From positions 33,703 to 97,702 of the forward strand of contig JAEFAM010000004.1 in the NCBI GenBank assembly GCA_016287565.1: a DNA stretch of 64,000 bases, written 5' to 3'. Source of the stretch: Clostridia bacterium (GTDB taxonomy: Bacteria; Bacillota; Clostridia; UBA1212; UBA1255). Position 1 is the first letter of the stretch. Every line of letters starts with the position of its first letter. A program made the translations under genes and the position numbers. This document shows, in pieces, positions 7,567 to 63,703 of this stretch. The notes beneath the pieces are model-generated. The model was not told the origin of the DNA. It did not search any database and saw nothing but the letters and a program-made list of their open reading frames with translations.

Positions 7567-7610
7567 TCATCGGCAATCACGTTTTTCAGCGGGTTGCCGA
7601 TGATTTTTAT
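7567..7610 (+). terminator. Rho-independent terminator
   Basis: Stem atcggcaa...ttgccgat followed by gatttttat. Confidence 0.75.
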
Positions 7611-7624
7611 AAAGTAACTCGAGC

Positions 7625-7948
7625 CTGCAACGGGGGACAGACCCCGGTTGCCGAACCGGCCGCGAACGAGGGACAGACTTGCGTTCGCCGCTTTTCCCGG
7701 AATTTTCGAAAAATTACAGGCATATTTCGAATATTTACGGGGAAATTCTACGGGCGGTAGAATTTCGGCAACCGGGGTCTGTCCCCCGTTGCAGGTTTAG
7801 CTCGCACGCCAGTGCGGATTTAGCTTGCCCGAAGGGCAAATTTAGCTGCGTGCCGTGCACGCAATTTAGCTCGCACGCCAGTGCGGATTTAGCTTGCCCG
7901 AAGGGCAAATTTCGCTTAAGAACGGGGACCTGTCCCCCGTTCGCGGCC
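7625..7948. repeat. Composite palindromic element A: REP-like end, ~110-bp AT-richer core, inverted REP-like end, then 5-hairpin linker array and GGGGACCTGTCCCC unit
   Basis: gcaacgggggacagaccccggttgc ... caaccggggtctgtcccccgttgca ... gcttgcccgaagggcaaatttagct / gcgtgccgtgcacgcaatttagct. Confidence 0.92.
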
Positions 7949-7952
7949 CGGT

Positions 7953-7981
7953 TTGCGCGGCACGGCCCGAGGTGGTATAAT
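7953..7981 (+). promoter_or_regulatory. Predicted sigma-A-type promoter
   Basis: TTGCGC-17 nt-TATAAT directly after element A and upstream of the ABC ATPase gene. Confidence 0.6.
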
Positions 7982-8025
7982 TGACCCAGGACAAGCGTCG
8001 TTGACGCGCTGGAGGTAAAATCAAT

Positions 8026-15889: not shown

Positions 15890-15925
15890 GGAGACAGGAT
15901 CCCGAGATCCTGCCTCCTTTTTTAT
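15890..15925 (+). terminator. Rho-independent terminator
   Basis: ggagacaggatc ccga gatcctgcctcc ttttttattt. Confidence 0.85.
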
Positions 15926-15936
15926 TTGTCCAAAAG

Positions 15937-16126
15937 CCTGCAACGGGGGACAGACCCCGGTTGCGGAGCGAAATAGAACGGGGGACAGGTACCCGTTTCG
16001 CTTGCCCGAAGGGCAAATTTAGCTGCGTGCCCGGCACGCAATTTAGCTCGCACGTTAGTGCGAATTTAGCTTGCCCGAAGGGCAAATTTCGCTCCATAAC
16101 CGGGGTCTGTCCCCCGTTGCGCTGCA
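15937..16126. repeat. Composite palindromic element B (REP-like inverted ends + 4-hairpin linker array)
   Basis: cctgcaacgggggacagaccccggttgc ... hairpins with aatttagct/aatttcgct linkers ... aaccggggtctgtcccccgttgc. Confidence 0.92.
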
Positions 16127-16135
16127 AGTTTTTGC

Positions 16136-16164
16136 TTGCTTCGGGCGGAAGAGTATTCTATAAT
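16136..16164 (+). promoter_or_regulatory. Predicted promoter
   Basis: TTGCTT-17-TATAAT just after element B. Confidence 0.6.
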
Positions 16165-43555: not shown

Positions 43556-43935
43556 TGCAACGGGATGGACTTGGAGGCTGCAACGGGGGACACCGCAACG
43601 GGGGACAGACCCCGGTTGCACCCGCGGTTGCCGGACACGCCGCGAACGGGGGACAGACTTGCGTTCGCGGCTTTTCCCGGGATTTTTGAAAATTAACCGG
43701 CGATTTTCGTAAATTTTCGGCAAAATTCTACCGGCGGTAGAAATACGGCGACCGTGGAACGTCATCCTTTGGCGATGATCCCGCTTGCCCGAAGGGCAAA
43801 TTTAGCTGCGTGCAATGCACGCAATTTCGCTCGCACGCCAGTGCGAATTTCGCTTGCCCCCAGGGCAAATTTAGCTGAGCAACCGGGGTCTGTCCCCCGT
43901 TGCACCCCCCGTTGCACTGTCCCCCGTTGCACCGC
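43556..43935. repeat. Composite palindromic element E: multiple REP-like units, ~110-bp core related to element A, 4-hairpin array, inverted REP-like end
   Basis: gcaacgggggacagaccccggttgc; gcgaacgggggacagacttgcgttcgc core; gcgtgcaatgcacgcaatttcgct hairpins; caaccggggtctgtcccccgttgcac. Confidence 0.92.
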
Positions 43936-45458: not shown

Positions 45459-45473
45459 GCCTCGGACAAGCCC

Positions 45474-45686
45474 TGCAACGGGGGACAGACCCCGGTTGCA
45501 CGCGTACCTGTCCCCCGTTTCACGCTGCCGTGAAGCGGCAATTTCGCTGCGTGCAAGGCACGCAATTTAGCTCGCACGCCAGTGCGAATTTCGCTTGCCT
45601 GCAGGGCAAATTTCGCTGTGCAACCGGTACCTGTCCCCCGTTCGAAGGACTCTGCAACCGGGGTCTGTCCCCCGTTGCAACCAGGG
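45474..45686. repeat. Composite palindromic element F
   Basis: gcaacgggggacagaccccggttgc ... acgctgccgtgaagcggcaatttcgctgcgtgcaaggcacgcaatttagct... ... gcaaccggggtctgtcccccgttgc. Confidence 0.92.
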
Positions 45687-45696
45687 CCGAAGGCTC

Positions 45697-45789: not shown

Positions 45790-47415
45790 GTGCTGGCGCG
45801 GATGGCTGGCGGAAGAAAGGGCAAGGGAGAATTGACCGAGAGACCCGGGAGAAGGGCCGTTGTCAACGTTTTCGCGTTGGGCATTTTGTTGTGCTGCATC
45901 TGCCTGGCTGTTGCCGCGGCGGGTGGCCGGAGGGAGATCGGAGCTGAGGAGAAGAAGGCGAGCAACGTCAGCGAGAAGTTCGAGTTGACCGCCGATTCTG
46001 GGAAATCGCTGAAGAATCTCAAGGACACGGACCGGTACAGCAAAGTGACGTTCGGCGAAGAAGACGTCGTGCGGGCGAAATTGCCGGCGGACAGCGGGTA
46101 TTCCATCGGCGGCGTGTACGTCATATGGGACCTTGTCCCGGGAGAGTGGACGCTGGAGACCGGCGGCACCATACTGAAGCAGGGGCGCTTCGGTATGATA
46201 CACGAGTACGTCGACCTTGCGGGCAAGGCGGCGCCGGGGCAGGAGATCGTGTTCAGGATCCCGGCGGATGCGGTGCTGTGCGACCTGATCTTTTACACGG
46301 AGGGGAAGCTTCCGGATTCGGTCCAGGTGTGGCAGCCGCCGCTGGAAAGGGCGGATTTCCTGCTTTTCCCCACCCACGGGGACGACGAGCACCTGTTTTT
46401 CGGCGGCATCATGCCGTATTACGGCGCGGAGCTGGGCTACAAGGTCCAGGTAGCGTACATGACGAACCACGCATACACCGAGCCCTATAGAGTGCACGAG
46501 CAGCTTGACGGCCTCTGGACCGTCGGGATCCGGAATTATCCGGTGTTCGGCGATTTCGTTGACGAGTATTCCAAGACCTTCGAGGACGCGGCGGCGATGT
46601 ACGGCGAGGACAACGTGGAGGCCTGGCAGGTGGAGATGATCCGCCGGTTCAAGCCATACGTCATCGTCGGCCACGATTTCGAGGGCGAGTACGGCCACGG
46701 GGCGCACCGGATCAACGGGACAATGCTCCAGTTCAGCGTTCCGGCGGCGGCTGATCCGTCAAAATATCCGGATTCGGCGGAGAAATACGGCGTCTGGGAC
46801 ACGCAGAAGTTTTACAGCCACCTGTACAACAGGGACAACGGCGTCATCATAGACTGGGAGACCAAACTCCTGGACAAATTCGGCGGGCGTTCGGCGCTGG
46901 ACGTTGCCAAGGACGGGTACAAGTGCCACGAGTCGCAGGCCTGGACGTCTTTCAAGGTCAAGCAGAGCGGCTACGGCGACTGCCGTCAGTTCGGGCTTTT
47001 CCGGTCAACCGTGGGTGAGGACGTGGAGAAGAACGACCTTTTGGAGCACGTCGTTTTCGAGCCCGACCCGACCGAAGCACCCACCCCTTCGCCGACGGCA
47101 GAGCCTACGCCGTCTCCGTCGCCCGCCGCGACGGCTCTGCCGTCGGGCAGCGCCGGGCAGAGCGGCCCCGAGACCGAGCCCGGTGACCCGGCGCGAACTG
47201 CGGTGCCTCAAGAGACCGAAGGCGGCCAGGCGGGCGGCGCAACGGGGGACAGACCCCGGTTGCCCACGGACGATAAGACCGGGACCGTCAGCGGCAACGC
47301 CGGCAGCGACAACAGCATCGGATGGATCGTTGCCGTTCTGATAGCCGCAATCGTTGCCCTTGCGGTGATGCTGCTCTATATAAGGAAGCGGAAGAATACA
47401 GGGCGCAAGGGCTGA
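45790..47415 (+). CDS. PIG-L family deacetylase domain protein with C-terminal TM anchor
   Basis: FPTHGDDEHLFFGGIMPYYGAELGYKVQVAYMTNH; VGHDFEGEYGHGAHR; Pro/Thr linker; TM + RKRKNTGRKG; GTG start. Confidence 0.85.
   Translation: MLARMAGGRKGKGELTERPGRRAVVNVFALGILLCCICLAVAAAGGRREIGAEEKKASNVSEKFELTADSGKSLKNLKDTDRYSKVTFGEEDVVRAKLPADSGYSIGGVYVIWDLVPGEWTLETGGTILKQGRFGMIHEYVDLAGKAAPGQEIVFRIPADAVLCDLIFYTEGKLPDSVQVWQPPLERADFLLFPTHGDDEHLFFGGIMPYYGAELGYKVQVAYMTNHAYTEPYRVHEQLDGLWTVGIRNYPVFGDFVDEYSKTFEDAAAMYGEDNVEAWQVEMIRRFKPYVIVGHDFEGEYGHGAHRINGTMLQFSVPAAADPSKYPDSAEKYGVWDTQKFYSHLYNRDNGVIIDWETKLLDKFGGRSALDVAKDGYKCHESQAWTSFKVKQSGYGDCRQFGLFRSTVGEDVEKNDLLEHVVFEPDPTEAPTPSPTAEPTPSPSPAATALPSGSAGQSGPETEPGDPARTAVPQETEGGQAGGATGDRPRLPTDDKTGTVSGNAGSDNSIGWIVAVLIAAIVALAVMLLYIRKRKNTGRKG
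47239..47263. repeat. REP-like unit inside the PIG-L CDS (G)
   Basis: gcaacgggggacagaccccggttgc, encoding ...GATGDRPRLPTDD... Confidence 0.93.
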
Positions 47416-47425
47416 AGAAACCCTT

Positions 47426-47733
47426 GTGCAACGGGGGACAGACCCCAGTTGGCAAACCGTTTGACGGCATGAATTTTGGGAAAGACAAAATTCTTACCCG
47501 TTCAAACGGCTTCGCCTTCCCCCTAAATAAGGTTGGAGACAGTCATTCCATGGAACGCGTACCTGTCCCCCGTTCCACGCTGCCGCGAAGCGGCGAATTC
47601 GCTGCGTGCCCGGCACGCAATTTCGCTCGCACGCCAGTGCGAATTTCGCTTGCCCGAAGGGCATATTTAGCTGTGCAACACGGTTTCCCAACCGGGGTCT
47701 GTCCCCGGTTGCACCCCCGGTTGCACGGGGCAC
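47426..47733. repeat. Composite palindromic element H
   Basis: gcaacgggggacagaccccagttgg ... gcgtacctgtcccccgttcc ... gctgccgcgaagcggcgaattcgctgcgtgcccggcacgcaatttcgct ... caaccggggtctgtccccggttgca. Confidence 0.9.
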
Positions 47734-51709: not shown

Positions 51710-51711
51710 AG

Positions 51712-51898
51712 TGCAACGGTGGGTGCAACGGGGGACAGACCCCGGTTGGCGGACCGTTGGAACGGGGGACAGGTACCCGTTCTACGCTTGCCCGAAGGGC
51801 AAATTTCGCTGCGTGCCTGGCACGCAATTTAGCTCGCACGCCAGTGCGAATTTCGCTGTGCAACCGGGGTCTGTCCCCCGTTGCACCACGTTGCAGGC
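51712..51898. repeat. Composite palindromic element I
   Basis: tgcaacgggggacagaccccggttgg ... gaacgggggacaggtacccgttc ... 3 linker hairpins ... caaccggggtctgtcccccgttgca. Confidence 0.92.
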
Positions 51899-51913
51899 GG
51901 CCCTGTGTTGCAC

Positions 51914-54093: not shown

Positions 54094-55980
54094 ATGAGCG
54101 CAGCAAAAGCAGGAAACGCGGAAAACGCAGAAAAAAGCGCAAACCTAAAAGGCGCAAACCAGGTGCTCGCCTCCGCCAAAAAATACAGAAAATGGTTCTT
54201 GATAGGGCCGTTTTTCAAACTGGTGGAGGCGGTTTTCGAACTGCTCATCCCCACGCTGATGGTGTACGTGATCGACCGAGGCGTCACCGGCAGAGACGGC
54301 GTATACGTGATGCGCATGATCCCCCTGATGCTGGGGATCGCGGCCGCCGGCTATCTGAGCGCCCTGGTCTGCCAGTACGTCGCCTCGCTGTCCTCCCAGG
54401 GTTTCGGCACGGAGCTTCGGTCAAGGCTGTTTTCCCACCTTTTAAGGATCTCCCAGAAAGACGCGGATCGGATCGGCACTTCCGGCATGGTCAACCGCGT
54501 CACCAACGACGTCAACATCCTTCAGCAGGCCGTTGCCATGCTCATACGCCTTGCCATCCGCGCCCCGTTCATCTGCGTCGGCAGCCTGGTGATGGCCGCG
54601 CTCCTCAACCTGAAACTCACCCTGGTCATACTCTGTGCGTTGCCCCTGCTGGTCGCCGTCGTGGTGCTGATCACCCGCCGCGGCGTGCCGCTGTTTGCAA
54701 AAGTGCAGAAAAAACTGGACAATATTGCCGTTATTTCCCGGGAAAACATGTCGGGAGCGCGGGTCATCCGTGCTTTTACCCGTTCCGAGAAGGAAAAACA
54801 GCGCTTCGAGGAGGAATGCGACGGGTATAACAAGGCAGTTGTCCGGGTCAACCGCGTTTCTGCGGTGCTGAATCCCCTCACGACGCTCATTATGAACCTG
54901 GCGGTCATCGCCGTGCTGTGGTTCGGCGGCAAAATGATCGCTTCGAACGATATGTCCGGCGGCCAGATCGTGGCGTTCATCAATTACATTTCGTATATGG
55001 TCACGGCACTGCTGGTGGTGGCCAATCTCGTTACGCTTTTCACGAAGGCGGCGGCCTCGTACAAGCGGGTGATGGAAGTGTTCGCGGTACCGGAAGCGGG
55101 GGAAACCGGAGAAAAGGCGGAGTCAAACGATGAGGCGAACGCGGAGGGAACTGGTGAAAGCGATGACGCGGGCGGAACGGAAAACGCTGACGGAACGGCT
55201 GAGATGGACGCAGCCGGCGGCATCGCCGTTGAGCTCAAAAATGTGAGCCTCAGATACATCGACGACGAAAACGTGCCCAACGCGCTGGAAAAGATCGACC
55301 TCCGGATCCCGCGGGGCTCCGTGCTGGGGATCGTGGGCGTCACGGGCAGCGGCAAGACCAGCCTGGTGAATCTGTTGACCGGCCTCTACGACCCCACCGA
55401 AGGCGAAATACTGATCCTCGGACGAAACATAAACAATATTGACCGTGCGGAGCTCCACCGGACCGTCGGCGTGGCGTCGCAGCAGAGCACGCTGTTTTCC
55501 GGAACGGTCAGGGACAATATCACCGCCGGGCGCAGGGATATTGACGACGGGCGGTGCCTGGAGGCGCTGAAGATCGCCCAGGCGGACGGGTTCGTGGCGG
55601 AAAAAGGCGGGCTGGACGCGCCGGTGGAGCGGGGAGGCGTCAATTTCTCCGGCGGCCAGAGGCAGAGGCTCAGCGTGGCCAGGGCCGTAGCCGGCAGGCC
55701 GGAAGTGCTGATCCTGGACGACAGTTTCAGCGCCCTTGACAACGCCACCGCGGCTTCCATGTTCCGTTCCATCCGCAATTCCGGAATCGAGACTATGATC
55801 ATCGTGTCCCAGCGGGTTGGCAGCGTGCGCCAGGCAGATCTCATACTGGTCCTGGACGACGGCAGGCCTGCGGGGCTCGGCACTCATAAGGAACTTTTGA
55901 GCGTGTCTCCGGTGTACGCGGAGATATGCAGGCTGTCCGGGGAAGCGGAACCCAAAGAAGGGGGCGATGCGGCATGCTGA
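54094..55980 (+). CDS. Heterodimeric ABC exporter subunit (degenerate Walker B)
   Basis: GVTGSGKTSLVNL, NFSGGQRQRLSVARA, LILDDSFSALD. Confidence 0.94.
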   Translation: MSAAKAGNAENAEKSANLKGANQVLASAKKYRKWFLIGPFFKLVEAVFELLIPTLMVYVIDRGVTGRDGVYVMRMIPLMLGIAAAGYLSALVCQYVASLSSQGFGTELRSRLFSHLLRISQKDADRIGTSGMVNRVTNDVNILQQAVAMLIRLAIRAPFICVGSLVMAALLNLKLTLVILCALPLLVAVVVLITRRGVPLFAKVQKKLDNIAVISRENMSGARVIRAFTRSEKEKQRFEEECDGYNKAVVRVNRVSAVLNPLTTLIMNLAVIAVLWFGGKMIASNDMSGGQIVAFINYISYMVTALLVVANLVTLFTKAAASYKRVMEVFAVPEAGETGEKAESNDEANAEGTGESDDAGGTENADGTAEMDAAGGIAVELKNVSLRYIDDENVPNALEKIDLRIPRGSVLGIVGVTGSGKTSLVNLLTGLYDPTEGEILILGRNINNIDRAELHRTVGVASQQSTLFSGTVRDNITAGRRDIDDGRCLEALKIAQADGFVAEKGGLDAPVERGGVNFSGGQRQRLSVARAVAGRPEVLILDDSFSALDNATAASMFRSIRNSGIETMIIVSQRVGSVRQADLILVLDDGRPAGLGTHKELLSVSPVYAEICRLSGEAEPKEGGDAAC

Positions 55981-57707
55981 AATGGCTCCTTTCATATCTC
56001 AAAAAATACCGCTTCAAACTGTTGTTGTCATCGCTGTTCGCCGCGGCATCCGGGGCGCTCCTGCTGGTGGGACCGCTGTTCCTGGGGAAGGCGATAGACG
56101 CGTTGACCGCATCCGGCGGCGTCAGGTGGGACGAACTGTATAAAAATCTCGGATTTTTGCTGATATTCTACTTAAGCGGCGCGGCATTGTCCTATATTTC
56201 GCCGGTATTGTCAGGAGAAGTCGCCGCCAGAGCCGTAACAGACATACGTTCTGACGTTTTTAAGCATATTTTGCGGCTGCCGCTAAGGTTCTTTGACACC
56301 AGGCCCCACGGAGACGTGATCGCGCGGATCACCACCGACTGCGAAAACATTTATGACGGCCTGGGGCAGAGCTTCGTGCAGCTATTTTCCGGCATCGTCA
56401 CCGTGGTCGGGACAATGATCGCCATGTTCGTGATCAGCCCCGTGATCGCTGCCGCGGTCCTGTGCCTCACGCCCCTGTCTCTGATCATCGCCCGGTTCGT
56501 GGTCATCCGCACGGCGCGGCTGTTCGCGGCTCAGCAGGCGAAGATGGGGGAGCTGGGCGCCCATACGGAAGAGATGCTTTCGGGGATCCGCACGGTCCAC
56601 GACTACTCTATGGAGGAGACGGCGGAGCAGGAATTCAGGCGGGTCAACGCCGAACTGTATAAGGTGGGCAAGAACGCCCAGTTCGGAGGGGCGCTGGTCA
56701 ATCCTTCCACGCGGCTGGTCAACAACGTGGCCTACATCTCCGTGGGGCTGATGGGTGCGTTGTTCGCGGTCAATAACGTCACTGCGGGGGGCTGGCCCAT
56801 GACCGTGGGCGTCATCGCGACGCTGTTGTCCTACGCCACCCAGTTTGCACGGCCCATAAACGAGATCGCCGGCGTCACCACCCACATCCAGAACGCGTTT
56901 GCCTCCGCCGCCAGGCTCAAGGAGATCCGCGAGGAAGCGCCCGAGAGCGACGAGACCGGCCTTGCGCGGCTGGAGCGGCCTCTGGGCGACATTTCCGCGG
57001 AGCATATCGAATTTTCGTACGTGCCCGAAAAGCCGCTGATACGCGACCTGAGCTTTTCCGCCCGGCCCGGAAGCGTCATTGCCATCGTGGGCCCCACCGG
57101 CGGCGGCAAGACTACCATCGTGAACCTGCTGATGCGGTTTTACGATCCCTTGTCCGGGACCATCCGCGTTGACGGGACCGATACGCTGACGGTGACCCGC
57201 GACAGCCTGCGCGAGGCGTTTTCCATGGTGCTTCAGGAGACCTGGCTGTTTACGGGCACGGTGCGGGACAACATCGCCTACGGCCTTCCCGGGGCGACCG
57301 ACGGGCAGATCGAGAAGGCTGCCAGGGCGGCCTGCGCGCACAATTTCATCAAGCGCCTTCCCAACGGTTACGACACGGTGGTCAGCGACGGCGGCGGCAA
57401 CCTCTCCGGCGGCCAGCGCCAGCTCATCACCATCGCCCGGGCAATGCTCTCCGACGCTCCGGTGCTGATCCTGGACGAGGCAACGAGCTCCGTCGACATC
57501 GTTACCGAGCAGTACGTGCGTCAGGGTTTCGCCAACCTTATGAGCGGCCGCACCTCCTTCATTATCGCCCACCGGCTGGCAACGGTCCGGCACGCCGACC
57601 TTATTTTGGTGGTGGACGGGGGCAACATAGTGGAGCAGGGCACTTACGCGGAGCTGATGGCGAGGCGGGGCCGCTACTGGGAGCTTGAGATGGCGGGCGC
57701 AACCTGA
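55974..57707 (+). CDS. Heterodimeric ABC exporter subunit (canonical NBD)
   Basis: GPTGGGKTTIVNL, NLSGGQRQLITIARA, LILDEATSSVD; ATG overlaps upstream stop. Confidence 0.94.
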   Translation: MLKWLLSYLKKYRFKLLLSSLFAAASGALLLVGPLFLGKAIDALTASGGVRWDELYKNLGFLLIFYLSGAALSYISPVLSGEVAARAVTDIRSDVFKHILRLPLRFFDTRPHGDVIARITTDCENIYDGLGQSFVQLFSGIVTVVGTMIAMFVISPVIAAAVLCLTPLSLIIARFVVIRTARLFAAQQAKMGELGAHTEEMLSGIRTVHDYSMEETAEQEFRRVNAELYKVGKNAQFGGALVNPSTRLVNNVAYISVGLMGALFAVNNVTAGGWPMTVGVIATLLSYATQFARPINEIAGVTTHIQNAFASAARLKEIREEAPESDETGLARLERPLGDISAEHIEFSYVPEKPLIRDLSFSARPGSVIAIVGPTGGGKTTIVNLLMRFYDPLSGTIRVDGTDTLTVTRDSLREAFSMVLQETWLFTGTVRDNIAYGLPGATDGQIEKAARAACAHNFIKRLPNGYDTVVSDGGGNLSGGQRQLITIARAMLSDAPVLILDEATSSVDIVTEQYVRQGFANLMSGRTSFIIAHRLATVRHADLILVVDGGNIVEQGTYAELMARRGRYWELEMAGAT

Positions 57708-57719
57708 GTGCAACGGGCC

Positions 57720-57858
57720 TGCAACGGGGGACAGACCCCGGTTGCAGACCCGACTTGAGCAACCGGGAACAGACGCGGAACACAGAAAAACGGGGGTCTG
57801 TCCCCCGTTAACGGTTTATCTTTGACCTTGCCGTAACGGGGGTCTGTCCCCCGTTGCA
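57720..57858. repeat. Composite palindromic element type 2, copy J (~140 bp)
   Basis: gcaacgggggacagaccccggttgcagacccgacttgagcaaccgggaacagacgcggaacacagaaaaacgggggtctgtcccccgttaacggtttatctttgaccttgccgtaacgggggtctgtcccccgttgca. Confidence 0.95.
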
Positions 57859-57879
57859 CCGCAGAAAGCGAGGAAGAAA

Positions 57880-58518
57880 ATGGATGACAATTTGCCAATG
57901 CAGATCAGCGACAACGTAACTTTGGGCGAGGACGGAGTCTATCGCTGGAAGCATGAGATCAACCTGTTCAAGAACCCCTCGATCTTTTTCCTGGTCTGGA
58001 AGATCTTCTTTTTCATCTTCCTGGTCATCTTTTTGATGATCAACCTGGTTGACCTCATCCTATATCCCCAAAATTTGCGCGAAATGTTCGTCAACAACCT
58101 GAAATTTGCCGGATATTTCCTGATCGGGATGACAATTGTCGTGGGTCTCGGCTATCTGATCTACGCGGCAATGATGAAAGGGAAGTATGTTGTCCGGTTC
58201 GAGATGACGGAGAAGGGCGTCAACCACATTCAGGAGGAGTCTCAGGCGAAAAAGTCGAAGGCCGTAGGGCGCGCGGCAACCGTCTCGGGGCTTCTTTCCG
58301 GCCGTTTCAGCTCAGCCGGCGCAGGCATGGCAGCGCAGCGCACCGAAATGTATTCCGACTTCCAGCGGGTCCGCAAGGTCAAGGCCTATCCGCGCAAGTC
58401 GCTCATCAAATTGAACGGCTACCTGAGCAGGAACCAGGTCTACACCTCAAAGGAAGATTTCGAGCTCGTCAAAACGTTTATCATCGAGCATTGCCCCAAT
58501 CTTGACAGCAAAAACTAA
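57880..58518 (+). CDS. Hypothetical membrane protein (two TM segments, YcxB-like organisation)
   Basis: Two hydrophobic segments; basic C-terminal domain FQRVRKVKAYPRKSLIKLNGYLSRNQVYT. Confidence 0.72.
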   Translation: MDDNLPMQISDNVTLGEDGVYRWKHEINLFKNPSIFFLVWKIFFFIFLVIFLMINLVDLILYPQNLREMFVNNLKFAGYFLIGMTIVVGLGYLIYAAMMKGKYVVRFEMTEKGVNHIQEESQAKKSKAVGRAATVSGLLSGRFSSAGAGMAAQRTEMYSDFQRVRKVKAYPRKSLIKLNGYLSRNQVYTSKEDFELVKTFIIEHCPNLDSKN

Positions 58519-58522
58519 AGGT

Positions 58523-58663
58523 CTGCAACGGGGGACAGACCCCGGTTGCAGACCCGACCTGAGCAACCGGGAACAGACGCGGAACACAGAAAAACGGGGG
58601 TCTGTCCCCCGTTAACGGTTTATCTTTGAACTTGCCGTAACGGGGGTCTGTCCCCCGTTGCAG
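58523..58663. repeat. Composite palindromic element type 2, copy K
   Basis: Near-identical to copy J by eye. Confidence 0.95.
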
Positions 58664-58698
58664 CCCCCTCAGCCTCATTGCAGCCACAAGGAACGAAT

Positions 58699-58757
58699 AA
58701 AAAACGCCGGGACCTTGCCGCGGTCAGCGGTCCGGGTCCCGGCGTTACCTTTTTTTA
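58699..58757. terminator. Large terminator-type hairpin between convergent genes
   Basis: aacgccgggacc...ggtcccggcgtt followed by acctttttttaa. Confidence 0.7.
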
Positions 58758-58877
58758 ACTAATTAGTTGTCTCTCATTAGCCAAATCGGTTAGTTAGTTA
58801 ATTGGTTATTGATTGTCAGACGCAACCTGTTCACAGACGTTGCCAGTCCAAAGGCGATTGACCGCCGTTGACCACCG

Positions 58878-60032
58878 TCAGATCTCGGGGATCTCGATCT
58901 CGATCTCGTGGCCGAGTTCGGCGGAGCGGCAGATGCCGTCGAGGATCGCCTGGTTGTAAATGATCTGGCTGGACGGCACGGGAGCGGGACGGCCGTACTT
59001 AACCGCGTCGAGGAAGGAGCGGATCTTGAGGTCGAACAGATCTGCGTCGGTGCGGAGGATCGGCACGGTGGTCTGAGTCTGAGTACCGCACAGATCGTGG
59101 TAGATCGTCATTGCCCCGCCGACGCTTCCGTTCCAGCAGTCGGTTGACGGGATCCGGAGCGAACCCTCGGTACCCATAATGATGGTGTCGCCGGGGGTGT
59201 CGAGGTGCATTGCCCACGCGATCCTGAAGTCCAGCACGATGCCGCCTTCGAGGCGCACGAATCCGGCCGCGAAGTCGTCAACTCCGAATGCTTCGGCGTA
59301 CTCTTTGCAGGGCATGTACTTGGGGTTGGTGCCGAAATACGCGGATTTGTATCCGGTGACGGTGAGGGGCTTCGGGTAGCCGATGGCGTTGAGGACCATG
59401 TCGAGGGAGTAGCAGCCGATGTCGCCAAGAGCGCCGATGCCGCCGGTGTCCTTCGCGATGAACGAGGTGCCGAAGGGGGTGGGTATGCCGCGCCTGCGGC
59501 CGCCGCCGGTCTGGATGTAGTAGATCTTGCCCAGGGTGCCGGACTCGACGATGCGCTTGATCATCTTCATATTGGCGTCGAAACGGGGCTGGAAGCCGAT
59601 CGAAAGCACTTTGCCGCTCTCTTTTTCGGCCCTGCAGATCTCGACGGCTTCGTCAAGCGTCACGCACATGGGTTTTTCGAGAAGGACGTTGACGCCGTGC
59701 TTGAGGGCGTAGATCGTGGGTTCGGCGTGCTGGCAATTGTATGTGCATACGCTGACCGCGTCAATATCGGGCTCGTTGTCGATGAGTTCGTCGCCGGACA
59801 GGTACACGCGGCCGGTCTGCTTCCACTTTTTCATGAACGCTTCGGCCTTGCCGGGGATCAGGTCGGCGTAGGCAACGATCTCTACGTCGGGCTGCTTCAG
59901 GTAGCTGTTCATATGGGCGTCGGCGATCCAGCCGGTGCCAATGATACCGACCTTGAGTTTGCGGTTCGTGTCGATCTTTTCCTCTGCGAGATGCGTGGTC
60001 TTGAATTCGTCAAGAATGGATGAATTTGCCAT
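58878..60032 (-). CDS. Gfo/Idh/MocA family oxidoreductase
   Basis: KVGIIGTGWIADAHMNSYLKQPDVEIVAYADL; GVNVLLEKPMCVTLDEAVEI. Confidence 0.94.
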   Translation of the reverse strand: MANSSILDEFKTTHLAEEKIDTNRKLKVGIIGTGWIADAHMNSYLKQPDVEIVAYADLIPGKAEAFMKKWKQTGRVYLSGDELIDNEPDIDAVSVCTYNCQHAEPTIYALKHGVNVLLEKPMCVTLDEAVEICRAEKESGKVLSIGFQPRFDANMKMIKRIVESGTLGKIYYIQTGGGRRRGIPTPFGTSFIAKDTGGIGALGDIGCYSLDMVLNAIGYPKPLTVTGYKSAYFGTNPKYMPCKEYAEAFGVDDFAAGFVRLEGGIVLDFRIAWAMHLDTPGDTIIMGTEGSLRIPSTDCWNGSVGGAMTIYHDLCGTQTQTTVPILRTDADLFDLKIRSFLDAVKYGRPAPVPSSQIIYNQAILDGICRSAELGHEIEIEIPEI

Positions 60033-60285
60033 GATTTACCTCCAAATTGTTATGTATTTATACGTTTTCACACTACACTTATCAGTTTTTGCTTTGCACG
60101 GCTTTTTGTGTTGTTTGCCGGTTTACGGGAATTTACTCGTATTTCCCGAAATTTCCCGGCGTTTTCCAAAATTTACGATCATTTCCCGGATATTTCCCGG
60201 ATAATCTACGGATGTTTTCCGTGGGATTTCCGTAGCTCGTTTCTTTGTTTGTCCGTCCGGATCGTACCGTGCCGCGGCAATTGTT

Positions 60286-61113
60286 TTAAGCCATCAGGCC
60301 CTGAGTTTTCAGATAATCCGCCGAAAGCTTCGCGGATTCCATTGCCGTCTGACCCGGCGCCGGCCTGTCCTGCTCGACGATCACCCAGGCAGCTCCAGCC
60401 TCGATCGACGCGTTAAGTATCTCAGGGACGTTCTGCATGCCGTGTCCCACGGGCCTGAAGCCGAAGTTTTCGCCCTTGTCCTCGACTTTCTTGTCGATCC
60501 CGATGAGCTCGTAAAGCCCCTCTTTCTGGCGGCCGCGCATGAAAAAGTCTTTCAGGTGGACAATGGGCGCCCTTCCGGCATATTTGCGCAGGTACGCCGC
60601 CGGATCCTCACCGCCGACGTTGACCCAGCACGTGTCAAGCTCCGTCTGGAGCAGTTCGGCCGGGATCCTGCGGTAAAGCGTGTCAAGGTAGTATTCGCCG
60701 TCGATTTTGGTGAATTCGAAGTCGTGGTTGTGATAGAGGAGCTTGAATCCGGCCTCGTTCACTTTTTCGCCAATATAGGCAATGATCTTCAGCGTCTCTT
60801 CGAAATTCCCGGCTTCCGGCCTGTATTCCTCCGGCAGGTACGGGACAACGAGGTATTCGCACCCTATCTCCTTATATGTTTTCAGCGCTCCGTCAAGGTC
60901 CTCCAGCATTTCGGCCAGCGACACATGAGCGGATATCGGAATGATCCCGAGCTCGTCCGTCAATTCCCGCACTTCCTTAGCGGATCTGCCGTACAGGCCC
61001 GCGAACTCGACGCCTTCGTACCCCATGGCGGCAACAGCCCTTATGGTTCCTTCGAAGTCTGCGGCCAGATCTTCTCTCACGGTATAGAGCTGCAATCCAG
61101 TCTTCATTTTCAT
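60286..61113 (-). CDS. Sugar phosphate isomerase/epimerase family (xylose-isomerase-like TIM barrel)
   Basis: MKTGLQLYTVREDLAADFEGTIRAVAAMGYEGVEFAGLYG; LLYHNHDFEFTK; ELDTCWVNVGGEDP. Confidence 0.92.
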   Translation of the reverse strand: MKMKTGLQLYTVREDLAADFEGTIRAVAAMGYEGVEFAGLYGRSAKEVRELTDELGIIPISAHVSLAEMLEDLDGALKTYKEIGCEYLVVPYLPEEYRPEAGNFEETLKIIAYIGEKVNEAGFKLLYHNHDFEFTKIDGEYYLDTLYRRIPAELLQTELDTCWVNVGGEDPAAYLRKYAGRAPIVHLKDFFMRGRQKEGLYELIGIDKKVEDKGENFGFRPVGHGMQNVPEILNASIEAGAAWVIVEQDRPAPGQTAMESAKLSADYLKTQGLMA

Positions 61114-61191
61114 GTGCTTTTCTCCTTTCGGAAGGTTTTGTTTTCTTGCCGGGTATAATTTTACACTGGGGCGGCCGCTAATTCAAGTGGG

Positions 61192-61332
61192 TTTTAACGG
61201 GGGACAGACCCCGGTTGCAGCATTGACCTGAGAAACCGGGAACAGACCCGGAACAAAGAAAAACGGGGGTCTGTCCCCCGTTAACGGTTTATCTTTGACC
61301 CTGCCGTAACGGGGTTCTGTCCCCCGTTAAAA
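61192..61332. repeat. Composite palindromic element type 2, copy L
   Basis: Same layout as J/K but with outer flanks gttttaacgggg ... ccccgttaaaac. Confidence 0.94.
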
Positions 61333-61336
61333 CCCC

Positions 61337-63703
61337 TTATGGCCGGCCGCCCGGTCCACCCCAGCCGCCGGGTCCGCCCCAGCTGCTGCCGGCAGAACCT
61401 TCGGTCGACGAGGATTGAGTCCACTCAAGAACGGAAGAGCCGTCGCGGGAGAGGGTGTATTGACCGTTGAGAACGAGCCCGTCGGAGGCGATCCAGACGG
61501 AACTGTAATTGGCCGAAAGCGAGAAGGAAAGGATGGTGTTGCCGGAGGAGTCGGTTAAAGTGTAGCTGCCGGACTGGAACGAAGTGCCGCGGCTTACATA
61601 GGTGTTGACGGAGCCGGAGGAGGGGGTCTCGCAGATGCCGCCGAGAGCGACCACGGTGCCGCCGGTCACTTTGATGGAGCCGTCAACGTCGATCGACCCG
61701 GCCATGCTGCCCGATGAACTGCCGCCCTTGACCAGCACGAAGCCGCCGCTGACGGTTATGCTGCCGTTAGAGTCGATGCCGTCGGTGTCGCCGGAGGGGG
61801 TCGTGACGTCGAGGTAGCCGCCGGTGACGTTGACCAGCGGCGAGGCGCTGCCTTTACAGGCGTTGATTCCGTCATCCTCGGCGTAAACGAGGGTGGAACC
61901 GCCGGCAACGTTGACGACGTTGCCTTCGAGGCCTTCGTGAGACTTGACCACGTTCACCGACCCGCCCGAGATCGTGAGGGTGCCGTCCGCGTGGATGCCG
62001 TCGTCGGCCGCCGTGATGGTGACCGTCCCGCCGGAAATGACAACGTTGCCCTTCCCGGTGCTCCCGTTTTCCAGTGCCGTGCCGGAGTTCGCGTGGATGC
62101 CGTCGTCGCCGCAGGAGACGTTGACCGTCCCGCCGCTTATAAGGACCTCGTTGTACGCCTTGATGCCCTTGGAAGAGTAAGTGGTCTTGTTCGAGTTGCC
62201 CGACCCCGACGTAAGGGTGACCCATTCGCCGTCAATGTTCGACGAGGACACGGACGTGAACAGGAACGCGTTCATCGAGGTGTTCAGCGGTTCGCCGGAC
62301 GTGGAGGCTGTGACAACGCTGCCGGACGGTGTCGAGCCTGCCTTCATAACGCAGAACCGCACTCCCGCGTAGCCGGAGGGCGCCTTGTAGACCAGGGCGT
62401 AGTAGGATGTGCGGCCGCTGTAGACCATGCACTCGTACGTGCATTTCACCCATTTTCTCGCCTGAGCGCCTTCGCCTGCGCCGTCAAACGACGGGTCTTC
62501 GCTGTAAAAATATGCGTAATAGTCGTTGGAAGTCGAGTAGCTGGAACGGGGGACAATAACGTATTTCTCTGCTCCGGCGGCTTCGTCCCCGTAATCCGAG
62601 TAGGATGCGGTGAAAACGTTCAGCGTCGCCCCGTCCGTCACGACAACGTCGTACGCCGCGCTGATCCCGTCCTTTGCGGCATAAACGTCAACCTGTCCTC
62701 CCGAGATCGTGATCGTTCCGCGCTGATTGCCCTTTTCCGAAACGTCCGTTTTCGACGTCTTGATAGCGTCCCCCGCCATCGAGATCAAGATCAGGCTCCC
62801 CGACTCGACGGTGACCGAATCATTGCCCTTCACCGCATTCCCCGTCGCCGTCACTTTAAGGGTCAACTCTTTTATCGTGACGTCGTCCTTGGATTTGATG
62901 CCGTTGTCGTAGCCGGAGCTCACGACAAGCGTGCCTTTTCCGCTGAGCTTCAGGTCGCATGCGGCAAAGATAGCTCCGTCCTCATCGACTTCGTCCTCGC
63001 TTTCGGTTTCTGCTGCAAGCTGCTGTAACTGTAACGGGGGACAGACCCCGGTTGCATCGGTTTCGGTTGCAGCGACCAAGGTTGCATCGGTTTCGTAATT
63101 GTCATTGATCGAAGAGGCAGAGGAAAGAGACAAAGCTGTAGACGTAGATTCAGATGATGACGTAGACGAAGAAGACTCTGCGCGTGCGTCGGTGATGACG
63201 TTATACGTCCCCTCGACCGCTTCGATGACGACTTTTGAGGCGTTGATCGCGGAAATTGGAGCGTTCGAATAGCAAGTTATTGACGACTCCGCAAGCAGAA
63301 TTTTGACGGTTCCGGAATCGGTTTTGGTGTCGGGGATGTTTATTACGATCCGACCGCCGTCCAGCAGGCCTTTGACCGTGTAATTTCCTGATGAAGTGAT
63401 GGTGTAGGTGCCGTTCGAAGCGGTGACAAGATTCCCGTCGCTTGAAGTAATGCTGAAGTTCTCTTCGGTGACCGAGTGATTTTTGGAGGGGTCAATTAAA
63501 GTTGTTGCCGACGGGGTCGACTGAGCCTGTGCCACTCTGTCGGTGACAACACCTTCTATGGGCGCGGTCTCGTTTGCGTTGTTATTATGTGTCCCGCAAG
63601 CGGTCATGGTTATTGCCAGGAGAAAAGACAACAGTCCGGCAAATCCGGCAACGGGGGACAGACCCCGGTTATTTTTCAAATGTGAGTGACTTTTCGTTTT
63701 CAT
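61337..63703 (-). CDS. Carbohydrate-binding domain-containing (DUF4353-like) lipoprotein
   Basis: Lipobox TMTAC; repeated GGTVNVSCGDDGIHANSG / GGTVTITAADDGIHADGTLTISGGSVNVVKSHEGLEG; Gly-rich C-terminus. Confidence 0.85.
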   Translation of the reverse strand: MKTKSHSHLKNNRGLSPVAGFAGLLSFLLAITMTACGTHNNNANETAPIEGVVTDRVAQAQSTPSATTLIDPSKNHSVTEENFSITSSDGNLVTASNGTYTITSSGNYTVKGLLDGGRIVINIPDTKTDSGTVKILLAESSITCYSNAPISAINASKVVIEAVEGTYNVITDARAESSSSTSSSESTSTALSLSSASSINDNYETDATLVAATETDATGVCPPLQLQQLAAETESEDEVDEDGAIFAACDLKLSGKGTLVVSSGYDNGIKSKDDVTIKELTLKVTATGNAVKGNDSVTVESGSLILISMAGDAIKTSKTDVSEKGNQRGTITISGGQVDVYAAKDGISAAYDVVVTDGATLNVFTASYSDYGDEAAGAEKYVIVPRSSYSTSNDYYAYFYSEDPSFDGAGEGAQARKWVKCTYECMVYSGRTSYYALVYKAPSGYAGVRFCVMKAGSTPSGSVVTASTSGEPLNTSMNAFLFTSVSSSNIDGEWVTLTSGSGNSNKTTYSSKGIKAYNEVLISGGTVNVSCGDDGIHANSGTALENGSTGKGNVVISGGTVTITAADDGIHADGTLTISGGSVNVVKSHEGLEGNVVNVAGGSTLVYAEDDGINACKGSASPLVNVTGGYLDVTTPSGDTDGIDSNGSITVSGGFVLVKGGSSSGSMAGSIDVDGSIKVTGGTVVALGGICETPSSGSVNTYVSRGTSFQSGSYTLTDSSGNTILSFSLSANYSSVWIASDGLVLNGQYTLSRDGSSVLEWTQSSSTEGSAGSSWGGPGGWGGPGGRP
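63032..63055. repeat. REP-like unit inside CDS (M)
   Basis: taacgggggacagaccccggttgc, encoding ATGVCPPLQ on the minus strand. Confidence 0.92.
63648..63670. repeat. REP-like unit inside the N-terminal coding region of the lipoprotein gene (N)
   Basis: gcaacgggggacagaccccggtt, encoding NNRGLSPVAG on the minus strand. Confidence 0.92.

Follow-up and report, generated by a model that had tools for sequence, protein, structure and literature searches.

A local cluster of composite palindromic repeats, probably moved by a TIRYT-type transposase, in a clostridial draft genome

Three composite repeats among five genes

The window, by which is meant the whole 64,000-nucleotide stretch analysed here, corresponds to positions 33703-97702 of contig C107 in a 2.65-Mb draft genome of 143 contigs (G000). 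Towards its distal end lie five genes and three copies of a composite repeat, J, K and L (Table 1), which share one orientation and each lie just beyond the stop codon of a gene, all within 3.6 kb. J and K bracket a gene for a small predicted membrane protein of 212 amino acids, with its start 21 bp downstream of J and its end 1-5 bp short of K. The bracketing by direct copies described in an earlier note on this DNA is confirmed. Congeners used for comparison are designated G001 to G006.

Table 1. Genes and composite copies at the locus (positions within the window)
Feature	Coordinates	Strand	Remarks
ABC transporter gene	55926..57707	+	immediately precedes J; 71-78% identical matches in G001, G002, G004, G006
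Composite copy J	57716..57858	+	class-A units 57723-57743 (+), 57761-57781 (decayed, +), 57789-57809 (-), 57835-57855 (-)
Predicted membrane protein gene, 212 aa	57880..58518	+	bracketed by J and K
Composite copy K	58520..58662	+	class-A units 58527-58547 (+), 58565-58585 (decayed, +), 58593-58613 (-), 58639-58659 (-)
Gfo/Idh/MocA oxidoreductase gene	58878..60032	-	convergent with K; 92-97% conserved in 6/6 congeners
Xylose-isomerase-like TIM-barrel gene	60286..61113	-	between K and L; conserved in 6/6 congeners
Composite copy L	61189..61331	+	class-A units 61196-61216 (+), 61234-61254 (decayed, +), 61262-61282 (-), 61308-61328 (-); outer stem 7 bp longer (GGGTTTT / AAAACCC)
Cthe_2159-type carbohydrate-binding protein gene	61337..63703	-	stop codon about 5 bp from L

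The copies lie within a few bases of the positions given earlier and are near-identical blocks of about 140 bp with common ends: J and K are 98.6% identical over 140 bp by BLAST, and L matches each of them at 92.5% over 133 bp. Counted by column, J and K show two differences among the 140 positions of the element (3 of 143 aligned columns, one of these lying outside it) and share a longest identical run of 70 bp, and L differs from J or K at 16 of 143 columns, several of which belong to flank and outer stem. The shared block is bounded by the ends of palindromic repeats, beyond which the flanks of the three copies lack homology. Where three repeat segments per copy had been described, there are four, in the order forward, decayed forward, reverse, reverse; the additional one is the decayed unit, AACCGGGAACAGACGCGGAAC, which retains 14-15 of 21 matches, with 14 or more being reached at only 2 of 38,960 background positions. 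Each block folds strongly as a single strand, at -47 kcal/mol for J (z of -8.0 against shuffles) and with z of -7.7 for K and -7.6 for L.

Recent local spread, as first proposed from the similarity of the copies, gains support from their distribution: the full composite occurs in its own genome only as J, K and L and is absent from the 57 relatives searched, congeners included, and the probability that random draws would place three class-A loci within 3.6 kb is about 0.0015. A distant search of a plasmid collection with J and a pattern scan of IMG/VR both returned zero matches, and nothing on 57600-61500 came close to an Rfam gathering score. Identity as a CRISPR or phage att site was rejected on spacing and unit order. 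At L, the outer stem runs 7 bp past the unit (61186-61335), and the host site minus the element would read as the palindrome GGGTTTTAAAACCC, hinting at a possible insertion into a palindrome.

Repeat classes and their resident transposases

The building block of J, K and L is a palindromic repeat, TGCAACGGGGGACAGACCCCGGTTGC, here termed class A and marked by ACAGACCCC. With up to one mismatch allowed, the window has 33 occurrences of its core palindrome GGGGNCNGNCCCC, where 5.1 were expected, a count reached by none of 100 shuffles, and the core GGGGACAGACCCC has 68 sites in the genome against one for a reversed control, with 28 of the 68 in the window where 1.6 would be expected; class A was counted genome-wide, classes B and C in selected stretches only. 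Intact units carry GGGGACAG, consistent with the motif GGGGWSAS, and are near-symmetric, with an outer stem of TGCAAC...GTTGCA and hairpin feet reading GCAAC, GAAAC or TTAAC. The label 'REP-like' given in the earlier note calls for refinement: the GT[AG]G tag of classical REPs is missing, and the match is to the TIR repeats of TIRYT transposases. The unit, without the composite, is found in several congeners and is abundant in G006. Among GTDB-species genomes, in a collection that may omit the window's own genome, the exact unit pattern matched only RUG14148 (from rumen, deposited as uncultured Ruminococcus sp.), and a literature search by repeat motif returned unrelated papers only.

Several further arrangements of these repeats deserve mention. 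Of 62 class-A units, 22 have a half unit (G[CA]AAC[GCT]) no more than about 25 bp beyond their 5' end, where the background is 4% (p ~1e-15), for example at 57710-57727, and 13 have one on the 3' side; such half units may serve as a signal for targeting or cleavage, or may be what is left of stacked insertions. Other composites in the window (7600-7990, 15920-16140, 43580-43920, 45460-45690, 47415-47725 and 51710-51900) are nested repeat families, in which pairs of class-A units surround class-B or class-C units and a multi-hairpin module, TTGCCCGAAGGGCAAATTTAGC..., whose core is present at 18 genomic sites. In G006, similar units form tandem arrays with a spacing of about 46 bp on contigs C51, C19, C115 and C173 (L048, L052).

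Three Y1_Tnp genes, on contigs C22, C96 and C131, are encoded in the same genome as J, K and L, and none was found on this contig. All three exceed the PF01797 cut-off and keep both the NHVHLL (HuH) motif and the YIH-NPV motif with the catalytic tyrosine; the best NCBIfam model for each is the REP-associated tyrosine transposase, at E-values of 2e-14 to 1e-21 that lie under the model cut-off, and one of the three aligns to E. coli TnpA-REP 4er8. A C-terminal HTH_23 match, at E-values of 5e-4 to 8e-3, is weak and under the Pfam cut-off. Each gene sits amid its own repeat class. The C22 stretch contains 17 units of class A, the class to which the units of J, K and L belong, and the C131 stretch 7 units of class B (ACAGACTT); in the C96 stretch class A predominates at 2-9 kb and class C (ACAGGTACC) stands nearly alone from 10.6 kb to beyond the gene. 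Repeats lie on both sides of the transposase gene on C22 and C96, and on C131 there is an exact copy on one side and a one-mismatch copy on the other.

Transposases of congeners likewise have GGGGACAG repeats nearby, with variable following bases. Because deep nodes are weakly supported in a tree of nine transposase proteins, the signs that protein and repeat vary together are no more than suggestive. A transposase need not be detectable for repeats to persist: in G006, an assembly about 88% complete, no Y1_Tnp gene was detected despite dozens of similar repeats.

Origin of the copies and history of the bracketed gene

Because homology stops at the unit ends and the flanks are unrelated, J, K and L resemble a discrete mobile block rather than a segmental duplication. 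These limits, the unshared flanks, the presence of three copies within 3.6 kb and a resident transposase amid class-A units together favour mobilisation of the block by a class-A TIRYT, and the three are probably copies of one non-autonomous, non-coding composite element moved by the enzyme encoded on C22, whose link to them rests on repeat class and proximity. On folding, the outer two of the four units would pair, giving a branched hairpin, and the block would most likely move as single-stranded DNA, with a Y1 (HuH) transposase of TIRYT type recognising the hairpins and cutting and rejoining at their feet, as expected from its family (PMC6006769). Judged by identity, J and K would be the youngest pair. 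Points against this reading are that no Y1_Tnp gene was found on the contig of J, K and L and that G006 has its repeats with no transposase detected; local copying by recombination could also produce a similar picture. No matching direct duplication of the kind left as a target site by a MITE of a DDE insertion sequence was seen in the flanks of J, K and L, as judged by eye.

For adjacent genes, the composites may act only as transcript hairpins, possibly including a minus-strand terminator. That such regulation, as terminators or mRNA stabilisers, is the main reason for their retention, with copies made by gene conversion between neighbours and with transposition of little importance today, is considered quite improbable. 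All three copies do lie just beyond stop codons, the minus strand of each bears a terminator-like stem, AACGGGGGACAGACCCCCGTT, followed by a T-rich tail, and the outer stem of L differs from that of J and K on both sides with pairing retained. A terminator scan, however, yielded 5 hits where shuffled sequence would give 4.7, the T-rich tails of J and K are not on the strand of the gene before them but on the other, and class-A units are clustered in the window rather than spread as followers of genes. That the arrangement is an artefact of metagenome assembly is barely credible: although the genome is a draft in many contigs, the copies have unique flanks, the order of the flanking genes is that of congeners, and short-read misassembly is unlikely because the identical run between copies, at most 70 bp, is within ordinary read reach.

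The bracketed gene raises a separate question. Its product has no Pfam family over cut-off and matches nothing in PHROG or NCBIfam. None of the six congeners searched has the gene, nor was a match found in the rest of its family, but two further families of the order contain relatives at 50-54% identity, one of which (L095) bears an N-terminal zinc-ribbon-like stretch. In G001, G002 and G004 the ABC transporter and oxidoreductase genes are adjacent, and the gap, which in G000 contains the 212-aa gene between J and K, is occupied by an unrelated DUF2752 gene oriented opposite to the ABC gene. In G003, G005 and G006 the DUF2752 gene adjoins the oxidoreductase gene, but the ABC ortholog either went undetected or sits on a different contig. 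The earlier note had named ancient, syntenic copies as the outcome that would tell against recent spread, and none came to light: the matching gap of G001, G002 and G004 has no GGGGACAG repeat, and no congener has the composite. Relocation of the DUF2752 gene within G000 is improbable: the one present elsewhere in the genome is another paralog, with similarity confined to about 45 residues, so the gene of the locus was probably lost (or falls into a gap of the assembly). Acquisition with replacement and differential loss are both candidate accounts of the 212-aa gene.

A single homologous crossover could have created the J-gene-K arrangement, if a composite resident downstream of the ABC gene had recombined with incoming circular DNA carrying the 212-aa gene beside a second composite. 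J and K being the closest pair, in direct orientation, is in keeping with such an event, as are the absence of the gene from congeners, the unrelated gene in their gap and the homologs in other families. No GGGGACAG repeats lie near those homologs, however, L is left unexplained, and independent insertion of J and K is sufficient because both adjoin gene ends, as L does; the crossover is considered rather unlikely. Still more doubtful is the proposal that TIRYT composites carry or install genes, with J and K marking, as ends or crossover sites, a swap of the DUF2752 gene for an unrelated membrane-protein gene. Mobilisation of the composite itself by the class-A transposase is the favoured reading.

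Relation to known repeat and transposase systems

The kind of element is already known. TIRtrons, described by Di Nocera et al. (2013, PMC3733652), comprise genes of TIRYTs, single-strand Y1 transposases related to RAYTs, flanked by GGGGWSAS inverted repeats that are also dispersed as singles, dimers and groups; the motif and its association with TIRYTs are likewise reported in PMC6006769. J, K and L are placed in this kind because the motif, the dispersal as dimers and groups and the Y1 transposases, themselves flanked by repeats, all match. Unlike the TIRtrons of PMC3733652, the present system joins four units into a 140-bp composite that has undergone a local burst, and combines three classes and three transposases in one clostridial draft, with near-exclusive pairing around the genes.

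The resident proteins also resemble TnpA-REP (RAYT) subclass 2.1 (Corneloup et al. 2018, PMC6006769), which according to its authors is probably equivalent to TIRYT, in being long Y1 proteins that have the HuH and Y motifs, and perhaps also in the helix-turn-helix-like C-terminal region, for which the match here is weak and under the Pfam cut-off. Whereas REP-like sequences were not seen in the neighbourhood of subclass 2.1 genes in that survey, each gene in G000 lies amid GGGGACAG palindromes, and this genome thereby supplies repeat families for a transposase subclass reported without them. In having inverted palindromic units combined into one block able to form a long hairpin, the composites are like the REPINs or BIMEs of GTAG REPs (Bertels and Rainey 2011, PMC3116915); they differ in lacking a GT[AG]G foot in class-A units and in their near-symmetry about the TGCAAC...GTTGCA stem. 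What is new here is an instance with a three-by-three pairing of transposase and repeat. This rumen-type clostridial genome displays a clean pairing of one transposase with one repeat, and its three Y1 transposases, each amid a class that shares GGGGACAG and differs in the next few bases, form a natural set for studying how hairpins are read.
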